Source: an uncultured Alistipes sp.
GTDB taxonomy: Bacteria; Bacteroidota; Bacteroidia; Bacteroidales; Rikenellaceae
DNA: 64,000 bases
Assembly (NCBI GenBank): GCA_947367255.1
Contig: CANBCZ010000004.1
Coordinates: forward strand, 1 to 64,000
Direction of reading: 5' to 3'
The notes below the pieces were generated by a model. That model ran no database searches. It worked only from the letters and a program-made list of their open reading frames with translations, and was not told where the DNA came from. Position 1 is the stretch's first letter; every line of letters begins with the position of its first letter. Shown piece after piece: positions 4,953 through 63,206 of the stretch. Position numbers and translations under genes: made by a program.

Positions 4953-6155
4953 ATGAAACAGTATAGCGAGCATAATTTCGAACAGTGTACAAAGTGTACC
5001 GTTTGTACCGTATATTGTCCCGTTGCAGCGGTAAATCCGCTCTATCCGGGACCAAAGCAGGCGGGTCCCGATGGTGAGCGCCTGAGAATGAAGGGCGGGG
5101 AGTTCTTTGACGAGAGTCTTAACCTCTGCCTCAATTGTAAGCGTTGTGAGGTGGCGTGTCCGTCGGATGTGCGCATTGGCGACATTATCCAGAGCGCACG
5201 CATCAAGCACTCTGCAAAAAAGCCGGGTCTGCGCGAGTTTACACTTGCAAATACCGACCTTGTGGGCTCCGTGGCAACGCTCGTATCACCTGTAGTCAAT
5301 GCAACGCTCGGTCTTAAGCCGGTGCGCCATATTGTCGAGGGTGTGATGAATATCGACCACCGTCGTATATTCCCGAAGTACGCCTTTGGTACCTTTGAGG
5401 GTTGGATGCGTAAGCAGCGCAAGGCACAGGAGCAGTTTGCAAAGCAGATAGCCTACTTCCACGGCTGTTATGTGAACTACAACAATCCGCCACTCGGTCA
5501 GGCATTTGTAAAGGTTCTCAACGCACTCGGATATGGTGTGCAGCTGCTTGAAAATGAGAAGTGTTGCGGCGTGGCACTTATCTCGAACGGATTTATCGAC
5601 AAGGCAAAGAAGCAGGCGAAGTCGAACCTTGCGGCTATTCGTAAGGCTACAGCTGCGGGGCTGAAGGTTGTGGCTACATCTTCGACCTGTACATTCACTC
5701 TGCGCGACGAGTATGAGCATCTGCTCGATCTCGATAATGGCGATGTGCGCGAGAATATCGACCTTGCTTGTCGTTTTATATACAACCTCCTCTGCGACGG
5801 CAACCATACTCTGCAGTTTAACCCTGACGCGCCGCGTGTGCGTGTGGCTTACCACTCTCCTTGTCACCTCGAGCGTCTCGGCTGGACTCAGTACTCTATC
5901 GAGTTGTTGAAGCTTATCCCTAATGTGGAGCTTGTCAAGCTCGACTCGCAGTGTTGCGGTATTGCCGGTACCTACGGCTTCAAGAAGGAGAACTACGCCA
6001 CATCACAGGCTATCGGCGAGTCTCTCTTTGCAGCTATCGAGGCATCCGAGTGTGACTATGTGGCAACAGATTGCGAGACCTGCAAGTGGCAGATTGAGAT
6101 GTCTACAAGTAAGAAGGTATTCCACCCAATTGAGGTTCTCGCCGCCTCTTTATAG
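4953..6155 (+). CDS. glpC: Anaerobic glycerol-3-phosphate dehydrogenase subunit C (Fe-S)
   Basis: Two 4Fe-4S motifs (CTKCTVCTVYCPV, CLNCKRCEVACPS) and CCG domains. Confidence 0.93.
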   Translation: MKQYSEHNFEQCTKCTVCTVYCPVAAVNPLYPGPKQAGPDGERLRMKGGEFFDESLNLCLNCKRCEVACPSDVRIGDIIQSARIKHSAKKPGLREFTLANTDLVGSVATLVSPVVNATLGLKPVRHIVEGVMNIDHRRIFPKYAFGTFEGWMRKQRKAQEQFAKQIAYFHGCYVNYNNPPLGQAFVKVLNALGYGVQLLENEKCCGVALISNGFIDKAKKQAKSNLAAIRKATAAGLKVVATSSTCTFTLRDEYEHLLDLDNGDVRENIDLACRFIYNLLCDGNHTLQFNPDAPRVRVAYHSPCHLERLGWTQYSIELLKLIPNVELVKLDSQCCGIAGTYGFKKENYATSQAIGESLFAAIEASECDYVATDCETCKWQIEMSTSKKVFHPIEVLAASL

Positions 6156-6268
6156 TCTTATCGTGATAACGCGGATACCTGCTTCCGCTAACAAAAAAAT
6201 CCGACAATGGCTGTACGCTCAAGTACTATCCATCGTCGGATTTTTTTTTGCCGAGCGTTGCATATTGT
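6156..6268 (+). repeat. Quasi-palindromic terminator element 1 (hairpin 6193-6249); right outer arm degenerate
   Basis: ATCCGACAATGGCTGTACGCTCAAGTACTATCCATCGTCGGAT between GATAACGCGGATACCTGCTTCCGCTAAC and GCCGAGCGTTG. Confidence 0.9.
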
Positions 6269-7764: not shown

Positions 7765-7893
7765 CATTTGCCGTGAAAATACGGCATTAGCCGCACATCC
7801 CTAAAAGCCCGACAATGGCTGTACGTTTTAGTACTATCCATCGTCGGGCTTTTTGCGCGATGCACGCCTACTACCGTGTTTTGACGACAAATG
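7765..7893 (+). repeat. Quasi-palindromic terminator element 2 (hairpin 7803-7854)
   Basis: Outer arms 7765-7784 CATTTGCCGTGAAAATACGG / 7874-7893 CCGTGTTTTGACGACAAATG. Confidence 0.9.
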
Positions 7894-8101
7894 AGTAGTG
7901 CGAAATTACAGCCCTTCGCTGTTTTATATGCCGAGCGGAGTATCTGCCACGTTTTGACGATAAATTAATGCAAGGAATAATCGTAGTGCAAGCTTGGATT
8001 TTTCACGATATACACCTACTACTACCTTTTGACGACAAATGAGTAGTGCGAAATTACAGCCCTTCGCTGTTTTATATGCCGAGCGGAGTATCTGCCACGT
8101 T
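7879..8101 (+). repeat. Exact 75-bp direct duplication (7879-7953 and 8027-8101) of a right-half-only element
   Basis: Identical sequence TTTTGACGACAAATGAGTAGTGCGAAATTACAGCCC...TCTGCCACGTT at 148-bp offset. Confidence 0.9.
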
Positions 8102-8182
8102 GGCTCGGCTACGCCGACCCTTCACTGCTCCGCCTCTGCATAGTGTGTAAGCACACTCTGCCTTCGGCTTAATCGCAGCGTT
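8101..8182 (+). repeat. H1/H2 two-hairpin module, forward copy
   Basis: TCGGC-TAC-GCCGA and AGTGTG-TAAG-CACACT hairpins; ends TTAATCGCAGCGTT. Confidence 0.75.
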
Positions 8183-8273
8183 TTGACGACAAATGGGTGC
8201 AAAGAATAATCGGTGTGCAGGTGTATAAATTCCGCTTCGCGGATACCTCTGTAAGGCTAACAGCAAAAAAACA

Positions 8274-12515: not shown

Positions 12516-12516
12516 A

Positions 12517-12642
12517 TTTTGTTGTGATAACGCGGATACCTACTTCCGCTAACAAAAAATCCGACAATGGCTGTACGTTTTAGTACTATCCATCGTCGGA
12601 TTTTTTGCCGAGCGTTGTATCTACCGCGTTCTGACAACAAAA
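12517..12642 (+). repeat. Quasi-palindromic terminator element 3 (hairpin 12554-12606)
   Basis: Outer arms 12517-12535 TTTTGTTGTGATAACGCGG / 12624-12642 CCGCGTTCTGACAACAAAA. Confidence 0.92.
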
Positions 12643-12897
12643 TGGGTGCAGATACTATTCGGAGTGCAAACTCTGACGATAAAACGGGTGCAGATACTAT
12701 TCGTAGTGCAAATTCTGACAACAAAATGGGTACAGAGATTATTCGGAGTGCAAACTCTGACAACAAAATGGGTACAGAGATTATTCGGAGTGCAAACTCT
12801 GACAACAAAATGGGTACAGAGATTATTCGGAGTGCAAACTCTGACGATAAAATGGGTGCAGATACTATTCGGAGTGCAAATTTTGACAACAAATAGG
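12630..12897 (+). repeat. 42-bp tandem array, six full units plus a partial unit (right-arm derived)
   Basis: Unit starts 12630, 12672, 12714, 12756, 12798, 12840, 12882; consensus TCTGACRAYAAAAYGGGTRCAGAKAYTATTCGKAGTGCAAAY. Confidence 0.95.
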
Positions 12898-16225: not shown

Positions 16226-16226
16226 T

Positions 16227-16350
16227 TTTGTTGTGAAAAGGCAGCATTAGCTGCCGCTAACCTCTTTCTCGTCAATGGGTAGTACTCCAAGTACAACCCA
16301 TCGTCTCGAAAGAAGGCCGAGCGTTGCTACTACTACCTTTTGACAACAAA
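16227..16350 (+). repeat. Quasi-palindromic element 4 (hairpin 16264-16313)
   Basis: Outer arms 16227-16241 TTTGTTGTGAAAAGG / 16336-16350 CCTTTTGACAACAAA. Confidence 0.88.
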
Positions 16351-16427
16351 CGACAAACCGAGAGCAGAGGCTGCTTGCAGACTATGCCGAGGTGCGGAAG
16401 TTTGAAAATCCCACTTGTGGGATTAAC
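16351..16427 (-). repeat. H1/H2 two-hairpin module, inverted copy
   Basis: CCGAGAGCAGAGGCTGCTTGCAGACTATGCCGAGGTGCGG and ATCCCAC-TT-GTGGGAT. Confidence 0.75.
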
Positions 16428-16520
16428 AAAAAATTTTGGAGTGATAACGCGGATATCATTATAAACATAAAACCTTAAAAAAGAGGACACTAATAACCAT
16501 ATATAAACACCAAACAAACT

Positions 16521-18050
16521 ATGGAATATACTATTATTTTAGCAATTGCCCTAGTTGTTTCGGCACTGGTCGGAGGTTTGACATATTGGGTTGTCAAGTC
16601 TCGTGCGCAGACGATGATTCACGAGGCGGAGGCACAGGCTGAGATGATTAAGAAGGAGAAGGCTCTCCAGGCAAAAGAGAAGTTTATACAACTCAAGAGT
16701 GAGCACGACCGTGCAGTAAACGAGCGCAACCAGAAGGTTAGGGAGGCGGAAAATCGTGTGCGTCAGGCGGAGCAGGCACTGCAGCATCAGCAGAAGGAGC
16801 TGGAGCGCAAGCTTGCCGAGAGCGACAAGGTTAAGGCAAAGATGGAGGCGCAGATTGCAACTGTCGAGGAGCGCAAGGCTGAGCTGGCACAGCTGATGAG
16901 CGAGCAGAATGCGCGTCTTGAGCAGATCTCGGGAATGAGCTCGGAGGAGGCGAAGAATATCCTTATCGAGAATATGAAGGCAGAGGCGAAGAGCGAGGCT
17001 GCCGCATATATCAACGAGACTATCGAGGAGGCGAAGATGACCGCCACAAAGGAGGCTAAGCGTATCATCGTAGCATCTATACAGAGAGTGGCAACAGAGA
17101 CCGCCATCGAGAACTCTGTCACTGTATTTAACATTGACTCTGAGGATGTTAAGGGTCGTATTATCGGTCGTGAGGGTCGTAATATTCGTGCCCTCGAGGC
17201 TGCAACAGGTATCGAGATTATCGTAGATGATACCCCTGAGGCAATTATCCTCAGCGGCTTCGATCCTGTACGCCGTGAGATTGCTCGTCTGGCACTGCAT
17301 CAGCTCGTAACAGATGGTCGTATCCACCCTGCACGCATCGAGGAGGTTGTAGCAAAGGTTAAGAAGCAGATTGAGGAGGAGATTGTTGAGGTAGGTAAGC
17401 GAACAGCTATCGACCTCGGTATTCACGGTCTGCATCCGGAGCTTATCCGACTTATCGGTAAGATGAAGTACCGCTCATCATACGGTCAGAACCTGCTCCA
17501 ACACGCCCGCGAGACTGCAAACCTCGCAGGTATTATGGCTGCAGAGCTCGGTCTGAATCCTAAGGCGGCGCGTCGCGCAGGTCTGCTCCACGATATCGGT
17601 AAGGTGCCTGATGATGAGCCGGAGTTGCCACACGCAATTATCGGTCAGAAGCTCGCCGAGAAGTATAAGGAGAAGGCTGATGTCTGCAACGCTATCGGTG
17701 CTCACCACGACGAGACAGAGATGACATCTATGATCGCCCCAATTATTCAGGTCTGCGATGCTATCTCAGGTGCACGTCCGGGTGCTCGCCGCGAGGTTAT
17801 CGAGTCGTACATCAAGCGTCTGAAGGAGATGGAGGATATCGCACTCTCTTATGAGGGCGTTGTAAAGACCTACGCTATTCAGGCAGGTCGTGAGCTCCGC
17901 GTAATCGTTGGCGCTGACAAGCTCTCCGATGCCGAGTCTGAGGCACTCTCACACGACATCGCAAAGCGTATTCAGGATGAGATGACATATCCTGGACAGG
18001 TGAAGATTACTGTTATTCGTGAGACGCGTTCAGTAAGCTACGCAAAGTAA
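16521..18050 (+). CDS. rny: Ribonuclease Y
   Basis: N-terminal TM, long coiled coil, KH ([19 protein letters not shown]), HD (GLLHDIGKV). Confidence 0.97.
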
Positions 18051-18257
18051 TTTTGGCGTGATAGCGGGGCACCTATCTCCGCTAACATATAAAATCAGCA
18101 AAGGGCAGTACATCCAGTACAGCCCTTCGCTGTTTTATATGCCGAGCGGAGTATCTGACCCATTGGCTCGCCTACGGCGACCCTTCACTGCTCCGCCTCA
18201 GCATAGCGTGCAAGCACACTCTGCCTTCGGCTTAATCGCAGCGTTCTGACGCCAAAA
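18051..18257 (+). repeat. Quasi-palindromic element 5 (hairpin 18086-18141) with H1/H2 module inside right arm (18164-18245)
   Basis: Outer arms 18051-18065 TTTTGGCGTGATAGC / 18241-18257 GCGTTCTGACGCCAAAA. Confidence 0.88.
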
Positions 18258-18370
18258 TTGCGTGACTCTAATTAAACGTTCTGACGACAAATGCGTGTAG
18301 GGATGAGGTGGTGATAAAATTTTTTCGATAAAATGTTGCAGATTTTGTATATTTTCTATACCTTTACCAT

Positions 18371-37403: not shown

Positions 37404-37769
37404 ATGAAAAGATCGATTTTACTCTCTCTCGCCCTGCTATTTGCCCTCTCGGCATCTGCACAGCTCGCCGCTGTATCGGGTATCCCTATGCCTAAAAAGA
37501 GCTCAGAACCTATCGTTGGTGCACTTGTCACCTTCACCTCGGAGTGGGATAAGGATCTGAAGTATCAGCGTAAAACCGACGCCGATGGATTTCGCGTCGT
37601 GCTTCCGCAGGGTGGCTATATAATGACCATTGAGGCAGAGGGCTACGAATCCCATCGCCTCGAAATCGAGGTTGATGAACCTAATATCGACCTTACCGTA
37701 ATCACTATGCTGACCAATGAGCAGGCGGCAGTACGAGATGCCAAACGCAAAAAACGTTATTTGTTGTAA
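37404..37769 (+). CDS. Small secreted protein with carboxypeptidase-regulatory-like/transthyretin fold
   Basis: Signal peptide MKRSILLSLALLFALSASAQ; short beta-sandwich-like sequence; TATCTTTG just upstream of ATG 37404. Confidence 0.65.
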   Translation: MKRSILLSLALLFALSASAQLAAVSGIPMPKKSSEPIVGALVTFTSEWDKDLKYQRKTDADGFRVVLPQGGYIMTIEAEGYESHRLEIEVDEPNIDLTVITMLTNEQAAVRDAKRKKRYLL

Positions 37770-37989
37770 TTTGCCGTGAAAATACGGCATTAGCCGCACA
37801 TCTCTAAAAGTAAACCCCTTTGGGCTGTAGGTTTTACTACTATCCCAAAGGGGTCTCTTTTGCGATGCACGCCGACCGACGCCAAACCGAGAGCAGAGGC
37901 TGCTTGCAGACTATGCCGAGGTGCGAAGGAGGAAGAACCACCTTTAGGTGGGTCAGCTACCGTATTTTGACGACAAATTGGTTTTATTG
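37768..37989 (+). repeat. Quasi-palindromic element 7 (hairpin 37806-37861) with inverted H1/H2 module (37878-37968) inside right arm
   Basis: Outer arms 37768-37787 AATTTGCCGTGAAAATACGG / 37970-37989 CCGTATTTTGACGACAAATT. Confidence 0.9.
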
Positions 37990-38090
37990 TGATAGTGCCG
38001 CATCCGAAGATATTTCACGATGCACCATCTCTAACACATTTTGACAACAAATTGGTTTTGGCGTGATAGTGCCGCATCCCTTAAATCTCC
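37983..38090 (+). repeat. Two ~33-bp direct repeats (37983 and 38057) differing only in the triplet before GTGA (ATT vs GGC)
   Basis: ACAAATTGGTTTT-ATT-GTGATAGTGCCGCATCC vs ACAAATTGGTTTT-GGC-GTGATAGTGCCGCATCC. Confidence 0.9.
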
Positions 38091-38105
38091 TAATGGAGAG
38101 TGATA

Positions 38106-42270: not shown

Positions 42271-42314
42271 TTAGTGCGAGGAAGTGGCGGAGTGCAAACT
42301 TTGATATTTCACGA

Positions 42315-42428
42315 TGCACACCGACCGACGCCAAACCGAGAGCAGAGGCTGCTTGCAGACTATGCCGAGGTGCGAAGGAGGAAGAACCACCTTTAGGTGG
42401 GTCAGCTACCGCATTTTGACGACAAATG
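42315..42428 (-). repeat. Inverted H1/H2 module plus right arm, near-identical to 37866-37982
   Basis: CCGACCGACGCCAAACCGAGAGCAGAGGCTGCTTGCAGACTATGCCGAGGTGCGAAGGAGGAAGAACCACCTTTAGGTGGGTCAGCTACCG shared. Confidence 0.9.
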
Positions 42429-49689: not shown

Positions 49690-49869
49690 TTTATCGTGGC
49701 ATTTGCCGTGAAAAGCACGCATCTGCGGCATATCCCTTAAAAATTAGTGTCGGCTGTACGTTTTGTACTATCCGATACTGATTTTTTTCACGATATACCG
49801 CACCTACGCACTTTTGACGACAAATGGGTGCAAAGAGGTAGCGGAGTGCAAACTTTGACGAATAAATTA
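49687..49869 (+). repeat. Quasi-palindromic element 10 (hairpin 49739-49788), apparently nested inside a second arm pair
   Basis: Inner arms 49701-49718 ATTTGCCGTGAAAAGCAC / 49808-49825 GCACTTTTGACGACAAAT; outer TAATTTATCGTG / TGACGAATAAATTA. Confidence 0.8.
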
Positions 49870-56469: not shown

Positions 56470-57615
56470 ATGAAACGACTATTTGTAATTATCTTGCTGC
56501 TTGCTGCCGGTATCGGTATGCTGACAGCTCAGACACCTATTGAACAGTTACCGAAACAGATATGCTCGGGCGAGTGGAAGGCAGGTCACGTGCAGGGGCT
56601 TGCTGTCGATACCAAACGCGAATATATCTACTTCTCATTTACCACTATGCTTGTCAAGATGGATATGCAGGGTAATGTCGTAGGTACAGTTACCGGTCTG
56701 CTCGGTCACCTCGGTTGCATTGAGTTTAATGATGCTGACGGTCGCATCTACGGCTCATTGGAGTATAAAGACGACTCTATCGGCAGGGGTATTCTCAAGC
56801 AGGAGAAGTCCAATAAAAAGTTCGATACCGCATTCTATGTCGCTATATTTGATGTCGATAAGATTACCCGTCAGGGTATGAGTGCCGAGAAGGATGGTAT
56901 TATGACCACCGTCTATCTGCCAACCGTTGTTGAGGATTTCAAGGCAAAGGTCGAGTGTGGCGGCAAAACCCTCGAGCACCGCTTCGGTTGCAGCGGCTTT
57001 GATGGCATAACATTCGGTCCAAAGTTCGGCAAGAGCGACGGAAAGTACTATCTTACAATCGCTTACGGCATCTACGGCGATGCAAATCGTAGCGATAACG
57101 ACCATCAGGTGCTCCTCCAGTACGACGCCTCAAATTGGACAAAATATGAGCAGCCGCTCTCGCAAGATAATATGCACCAGTTGGGTCCTAAAAAGCCTGC
57201 AGGTCGCTACTTCGTCTATACCGGCAACCGTAATTGGGGCGTGCAGAATATGGAGTATGATAAGAGCCGAAACTTCTGGTTCTTAGCAACTTATGAGACT
57301 AAGAAATCCGATTTTGCAGGCTTCTCGCTGATGACAATCGACGGCAATATCGCACCTAAAAAGCAGCCCCTCAAGGGGGTGGACTACTGCAAGAGTGGCA
57401 ACCTCTTGACACTCTCGGGTCGCGGTATGACCGATGCCAACCACCACTCAATTCGTGGCTGGCACTTCGATAAATCATCTACCGGTATTCACGCTTTGGG
57501 CGATAACTACTTCTATATCTCGCACCGCAAACGCAATAAGCCATACCAGAGTTGTACTGCGACGCTATATAAGTTTGTGGGGAGGGAGAGTTATCCTTTT
57601 GATCTCATTCAGTAG
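56470..57615 (+). CDS. Secreted hypothetical protein, beta-propeller-like
   Basis: Signal peptide MKRLFVIILLLAAGIGMLTAQ; repeated beta-rich motifs. Confidence 0.7.
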   Translation: MKRLFVIILLLAAGIGMLTAQTPIEQLPKQICSGEWKAGHVQGLAVDTKREYIYFSFTTMLVKMDMQGNVVGTVTGLLGHLGCIEFNDADGRIYGSLEYKDDSIGRGILKQEKSNKKFDTAFYVAIFDVDKITRQGMSAEKDGIMTTVYLPTVVEDFKAKVECGGKTLEHRFGCSGFDGITFGPKFGKSDGKYYLTIAYGIYGDANRSDNDHQVLLQYDASNWTKYEQPLSQDNMHQLGPKKPAGRYFVYTGNRNWGVQNMEYDKSRNFWFLATYETKKSDFAGFSLMTIDGNIAPKKQPLKGVDYCKSGNLLTLSGRGMTDANHHSIRGWHFDKSSTGIHALGDNYFYISHRKRNKPYQSCTATLYKFVGRESYPFDLIQ

Positions 57616-57741
57616 TTTTATCGTGATAGTGGCGCATTTGCGGCACATCCCTTAAAAACCAACGGCGGCTGTACGTTTTAGTACTATCCGCCGTTGCTTT
57701 TTTGCACGATGCACCGCAACTACACCACTCTGACGATAAAA
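57616..57741 (+). repeat. Quasi-palindromic element 11 (hairpin 57654-57703)
   Basis: Outer arms 57616-57632 TTTTATCGTGATAGTGG / 57725-57741 CCACTCTGACGATAAAA. Confidence 0.92.
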
Positions 57742-62988: not shown

Positions 62989-62994
62989 AGACGA

Positions 62995-63118
62995 AAATCG
63001 ATTTTAAGCGGTGATTTCCGCGTTACGCAATTTTAATCAGACAGGGAAATACCTCCTGTATGTCCCTGCCAGCTTAAAATTCCAAGCCTTGAAATCCCAC
63101 CCTTAAAATCAATTTTTG
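62995..63118 (+). repeat. Quasi-palindromic element 13 (variant related to element 9)
   Basis: CGATTTTAAGCGGTGATTTCCGCG / AAGCCTTGAAATCCCACCCTTAAAATCAA arms; CAGGGAAATACCTCCTGTATGTCCCTG hairpin. Confidence 0.78.
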
Positions 63119-63206
63119 GGGAGGTGAAAAAATTAAAATAACATCCGCTCTGCGGATACCACTATAAGGCTAATGGCTAATAGCCAACAGCCAATAGCAA
63201 AAAATA

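Follow-up and report, generated by a model that had tools for sequence, protein, structure and literature searches.

The repeats between positions 37,770 and 38,090 of the 64,000-nucleotide Alistipes stretch analysed here (the window) probably belong to an undescribed, non-autonomous, REP/MITE-like mobile hairpin of about 130 bp that docks at the 3' ends of genes and of which one folded strand is selected. If this is true, gene 3' ends across a large group of Alistipes-like gut bacteria are repeatedly rewritten by a hairpin element whose preference for stop codons and for a single replication strand is unusual. Such an element would offer a natural high-copy system in which to study the spread of single-stranded hairpins and their tolerance at replication forks, and would bear on terminator turnover and on the enzyme that moves palindromic repeats without a known transposase. 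A 60-copy alignment (A1) and a covariance model (R1) are direct means of finding every copy.

The unit has inverted ends, ATTT-NNN-GTGA ... TGAC-N'N'N'-AAAT (TTTNNNGTGA/TGACNNNAAA in A1), around a central hairpin whose apex is conserved (GTAC/GTAC) and whose stem is variable; many of these hairpins are flanked by A-runs and T-runs. The TTT, GT.A and AAA boxes are nearly invariant in 135 parsed copies from 11 genomes (151 copies were catalogued). Identity between near-identical paralogues drops abruptly at -8/-7 on the left and at about +10/+12 on the right; thus, the element is a discrete unit. It is short, non-coding and multi-copy, with terminal inverted repeats and clean edges, as MITEs are. 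GTGA stands opposite TGAC in every complete copy, with a fixed G.G mismatch (C.C on the opposite strand; A1 columns 11-13 with 121-123), and the fixed mismatches G.G and T.C stay uncorrected across copies. GTGAA/TTGAC and GTGAT/CTGAC change jointly, though that pair does not base-pair.

At the locus itself, ACAAATTGGTTTT starts at 37973 and again, exactly 74 bp on, at 38047, and GTGATAGTGCCGCATCC lies at 37989-38005 and 38063-38079, directly after the triplets ATT (37986-37988) and GGC (38060-38062). The first-pass annotation had described both direct repeats and had their separation right, placing them about 10 bases too far to the right (37983 and 38057). Its statement that they differ in the triplet alone holds from ACAAATT onward and fails further left, where more differences occur (CCGT/ACAC, G/A). 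The repeat extends leftward to 49 nt at 86% identity, and the extra differences lie in the right arm of the preceding element. Each 33-bp repeat is, in fact, the right end of one element and the left end of the next. The best reading of the locus is a three-element array, A-B-C, with older copies decayed downstream into right-end arrays:

37768 to 37979, plus strand: element A, full; its left end is continuous with the upstream gene's stop codon, TAA (37767-37769)
37770-37779 and 37968-37977, plus strand: ends of element A, TTT-GCC-GTGA and TGAC-GAC-AAA
37980 to 38053, plus strand: element B (the first repeat), in which a left end is joined to another subtype's right half and the central hairpin is deleted
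37983 to 37992 and 38042-38051, plus strand: ends of element B, TTT-ATT-GTGA and TGAC-AAC-AAA
38054 to 38096, plus strand: element C (the second repeat), a weak 8.9-bit match; an orphan left end that stops short of the convergent C1-peptidase gene's terminator
38057 to 38066, plus strand: end of element C, TTT-GGC-GTGA

Element A scores 67.7 bits with R1 and has a DNA fold z of -7.1; its right arm is split by a GC-rich repeat of about 75 bp (about 37882-37955). This repeat (GACGCCAAACCGAGAGCAGAGGCTGCTTGCAGACTATGCCGAGGTGCG...) recurs in or behind several right arms, at 37882-37955, 42304-42389 and 16352-16430 of the window and at locus L019. The nearby right arm that had been assigned to the first repeat, TGAC-AAC-AAA, is indeed there and pairs with ATT except for one A.C that becomes a G.T wobble when the folded strand is read. 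The two repeats share CATCC after GTGCCG, and comparison with L013 and L002 suggests that this would most simply have arisen by deletions between CAT/CATCC motifs, which are found in both element halves. The GGC copy is the orphan left arm that it had been taken for, ending near 38096. Within the window the exact 17-mer is found at two places, and it is absent from the other loci (205 loci scanned); with up to three mismatches it has three matches in the window, against 0.21 expected by chance.

Other copies in the window lie behind ordinary genes, among them those for an amino-acid dehydrogenase, gcvT, RNase Y and a rhamnosidase:

6158 to 6247, plus strand: element, partial or diverged, at the end of gene 4953-6155, on its stop codon
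7766 to 7893, plus strand: complete element after a Glu/Leu/Phe/Val dehydrogenase gene
12516 to 12643, plus strand: complete element after a rhamnosidase gene
16226 to 16351, plus strand: diverged complete element
18050 to 18260, plus strand: element with a GC-rich repeat inside, at the RNase Y gene's stop codon
42144 to 42272, plus strand: complete element, triplets AGC/GCT, after an FAD-oxidoreductase gene
49701 to 49826, plus strand: complete element after gcvT, preceded by an older left-end stub (TAATTTATCGTG)
57616 to 57741, plus strand: complete element, triplets ATC/GAT, after gene 56470-57615 and convergent with the next gene; 139.9 bits

Downstream of the element at 7766 to 7893, modules continue to about 8196, every one ending in TGACNNNAAA. 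At 12630-12893, 42-bp units stand in tandem, each closing with the right-end motif TGAC(AAC/GAT)AAA. Older left-end stubs are found at L186, L019 and window position 49690; together with the tandem right-end modules (7766-8196 and 12630-12893) they indicate that single sites have received insertions more than once. A second end type, TTGATTTTAAG...CTTAAAATCAA, encloses a similar central hairpin, also behind stop codons, at about 62990-63130 of the window and at L122 (genome G003), L124 (G099) and L105 (G028), as if outer arms were exchangeable between element types.

The triplet had been said to covary in complete elements, and it does so genome-wide, N'N'N' being complementary to NNN. Complementarity is exact in 93 of the 135 parsed copies, compared with 29 expected and a maximum of 44 in 5000 shuffles; counting C.A as paired raises the number to 118 (shuffle maximum 75). 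The same holds along the stem: in the 60-copy alignment, 31 of 49 stem pairs have two-sided changes, with 478 two-sided cells; shuffling gives 151, and sliding no more than 98. Two-sided changes affect the three triplet pairs in 14, 11 and 21 of the 60 copies and most other variable stem pairs in 13-36.

This bears on the proposal of the first-pass annotation that the triplet is address-like or hypermutable. The immediate neighbours, TTT and GTGA, are as unchanging as was claimed, the triplet varies between them, and up to 6 left triplets occur on 10 copies that share an identical 16-nt inner left arm. Against the proposal, other stem pairs vary equally. Paralogues whose interiors are 93% or more identical differ at triplet positions in at most 0.44 of pairs in the genome to which the window belongs and at most 0.43 in G003; in G028-type copies the left triplet is constant (0.00), and differences at other arm positions reach 0.42-0.47 of pairs. 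Nor do triplets go with loci: where the elements at orthologous gene ends have different interiors, their triplets mostly differ as well, so that the triplet is no locus mark. A targeting address or a hypermutable site is, accordingly, highly improbable. The triplet changes about 2.5-3 times faster than the interior average, as is to be expected since most interior positions are constrained in sequence. A reset of the triplet at each copying event is rejected, because close paralogues (at least 96% interior identity) retain it in 23 of 29 cases. In five vertically inherited orthologue pairs (at least 93%), triplets are equal or one step apart, the half-steps being GTC/GAT versus ATC/GAT and GTC/AAC versus GTC/GAC. 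The triplet is a sequence-free, paired stem block, neither an address nor specially hypermutable; the impression that it is special comes from a free stem pair being flanked by two invariant boxes.

The two strands of the element are not equivalent. In 134 of 135 copies the strand that lies opposite the upstream gene has the more stable fold, by a mean of 13.4 kcal/mol with RNA parameters and 7.6 with DNA parameters, and non-Watson-Crick pairs comprise 143 C.A versus 30 G.T, both the energy difference and the C.A excess being drawn from related copies whose counts are not independent events. C.A on the gene strand is a G.T wobble on the opposite strand. One-step changes between near-identical arms have the same skew (37 to 10), and the covariance model built for the opposite strand gives 142.5 bits at a place where the gene strand reaches 67.9.

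Placement is constrained too. In a sample of the window's own genome (the window and twenty 20-kb stretches, picked to cover element-carrying contigs), the left end lies at most 13 nt from a same-strand stop codon in 41 of 50 copies, compared with 14 expected from random placement in the gap; the corresponding numbers for G003 are 30 of 43 and 10. Copies keep to one strand per contig (100 of 107; random maximum 85), although the sampled genes occupy both (183 to 194). By GC3 skew, elements are leading-sense 45:5 versus 84:74 for gene ends (p=1.5e-6), and the S10-operon gene rplB is on the same strand as the elements in contig C2 of the own genome, C35 of G135 and C5 of G041. The elements' strand is thus apparently the leading-sense strand, a reading of a weak GC3 skew and these three contigs. 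The bias is weaker in G003, scored per 20-kb stretch (29:14, p=0.009).

When the own genome (2.07 Mb) was searched with the repeat region, dozens of resembling intergenic stretches came up; the covariance model finds about 124 distinct copies there. A single DNA query has matches in 51 of 151 genomes of the genus; the model has them in 49 of 150 family members, representing 4 of 19 genera, and, among 198 genomes from across the order, in the own genome alone. These genomes are metagenome-type draft assemblies; contigs C2, C25, C35, C38 and C56 of the own genome end a few hundred bases from an element, so that the repeats probably break assembly. Different species have different elements at the same gene end, and where an orthologue has none, an ordinary terminator stands about 25 nt past its stop codon. 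The available pairs of filled and empty sites lose synteny to the right of the element, and none is clean with both flanks intact; no matching short direct repeat indicative of target-site duplication is seen at element edges, and neither excision nor transposition was observed. A search of about one quarter of the own genome yielded no autonomous copy between far-apart ends, and a search for phage or plasmid carriage found no match. In a literature search that covered few subscription journals, such elements turned up described neither for Alistipes nor for Rikenellaceae.

On the mobile-hairpin reading, the strand opposite the gene would fold into one long hairpin in which invariant boxes alternate with sequence-free but paired stem blocks. 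Copies would move as discrete units, as their clean edges suggest, and would land directly behind the stop codon at gene 3' ends, presumably replacing the usual terminator. Insertion or retention would be almost solely on the leading-sense strand, so that the strand which folds would be the template of the leading strand. With age, copies would decay downstream into arrays of right ends, and compensatory substitution, possibly aided by template switching, may maintain the match of the arms. We infer that selection acts on the elements as single-stranded DNA and that copies still move.

There is some chance, though a minor one, that the elements are instead structured RNAs, terminators or 3'-end stabilisers of gene or antisense/convergent transcripts, which spread once and whose mobility is past or incidental. 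Their location is where a terminator is expected, native terminators are missing from element sites and present in element-less orthologues, and the A-run/T-run flanks of many central hairpins fit this role. However, the better fold is that of the strand opposite the gene's mRNA, about half of the window copies lie between co-directional genes, a terminator scan does not set the elements apart, and Rfam provides no family match (at most sub-threshold microRNA models); RNA function alone would also leave the use of one strand per contig unexplained. A smaller chance attaches to covariation without selection, in which DNA template switching copies one arm onto the other and so generates multi-base compensatory changes. 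Hairpin stems are known to be created and repaired by template switching (PMC8794818), and near-identical paralogues that differ by a whole compensated triplet (L180/L179 and L182/L181 in G003) are what this mechanism would leave behind. It does not account for the persistence of the fixed G.G and T.C mismatches, for mismatches skewed to the kinds tolerated on one strand, or for the single half-steps that also occur (GTC/GAT to ATC/GAT).

It is improbable that the elements are attC-like sites, single-stranded and bottom-strand-folded, one behind each gene, serving a putative tyrosine recombinase. The consensus attC boxes R and L are RYYYAAC/GTTRRRY, with AAC...GTT cores. The likeness to integron attC is that of a bottom-strand structure directly behind a stop codon, with variable bases paired within the site; here, however, no R/L boxes were recognised when the ends were compared with this consensus (rather than with an attC model), and the upstream genes are scattered housekeeping genes, not cassettes. 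The bottom strand would also be on the leading-strand template, as it is for attC in 25 of 30 sedentary integrons (PMC5371416). The integron integrase model TIGR02249 has no match above cut-off in 14 genomes, which contain generic tyrosine recombinases only, and an integron origin is rejected on this ground. The reverse transcriptase domain RVT_1 is absent from the element-rich genomes G028, G099 and G135, and a retron or group II intron origin is rejected on this absence.

What the elements share with REP/REPIN sequences is a high-copy, extragenic, non-coding imperfect palindrome with covarying arms that presumably moves single-stranded. They differ in lacking a GTAG or CGTC tag (CGTC occurs only where the triplet ends in C) and in forming one long hairpin of about 130 bp, docked at stop codons, with a paired variable triplet. 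RAYT (Y1_Tnp, PF01797) was looked for in the own genome and in 13 congeners, some of them element-rich, and found in none, with five controls positive; on this absence from 14 genomes a RAYT/IS200 transposase is rejected as the mover. CGTC-tagged palindromic repeats, for which Bacteroidetes are among the reported hosts, are likewise palindromes and are said to be without a dedicated transposase; those repeats are short REPs with an unpaired CGTC tag, whereas the present palindromes have no tag and their outer stem pairs vary (PMC3733652). BrickBuilt, an intergenic MITE of the Bacteroidales species Porphyromonas gingivalis, similarly combines terminal inverted repeats with tandem repeats in its interior; its terminal repeats are different (AAGACCTTTGCA / CCGAAAGGTCTC), and the main text of its description mentions neither 'stop codon' nor 'hairpin' (PMC4596501).

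In G028 copies with the commonest spacing, the stop codon ahead of the element is always TAA or TGA and its last A is the first base of the unit. At L035, L145, L056, L177 and L174 the unit begins a few bases earlier and the triplet (AGC, GTA, ATA) provides the gene's stop codon, TAG, so that the retention of a triplet may depend in part on the frame in which the gene is read.
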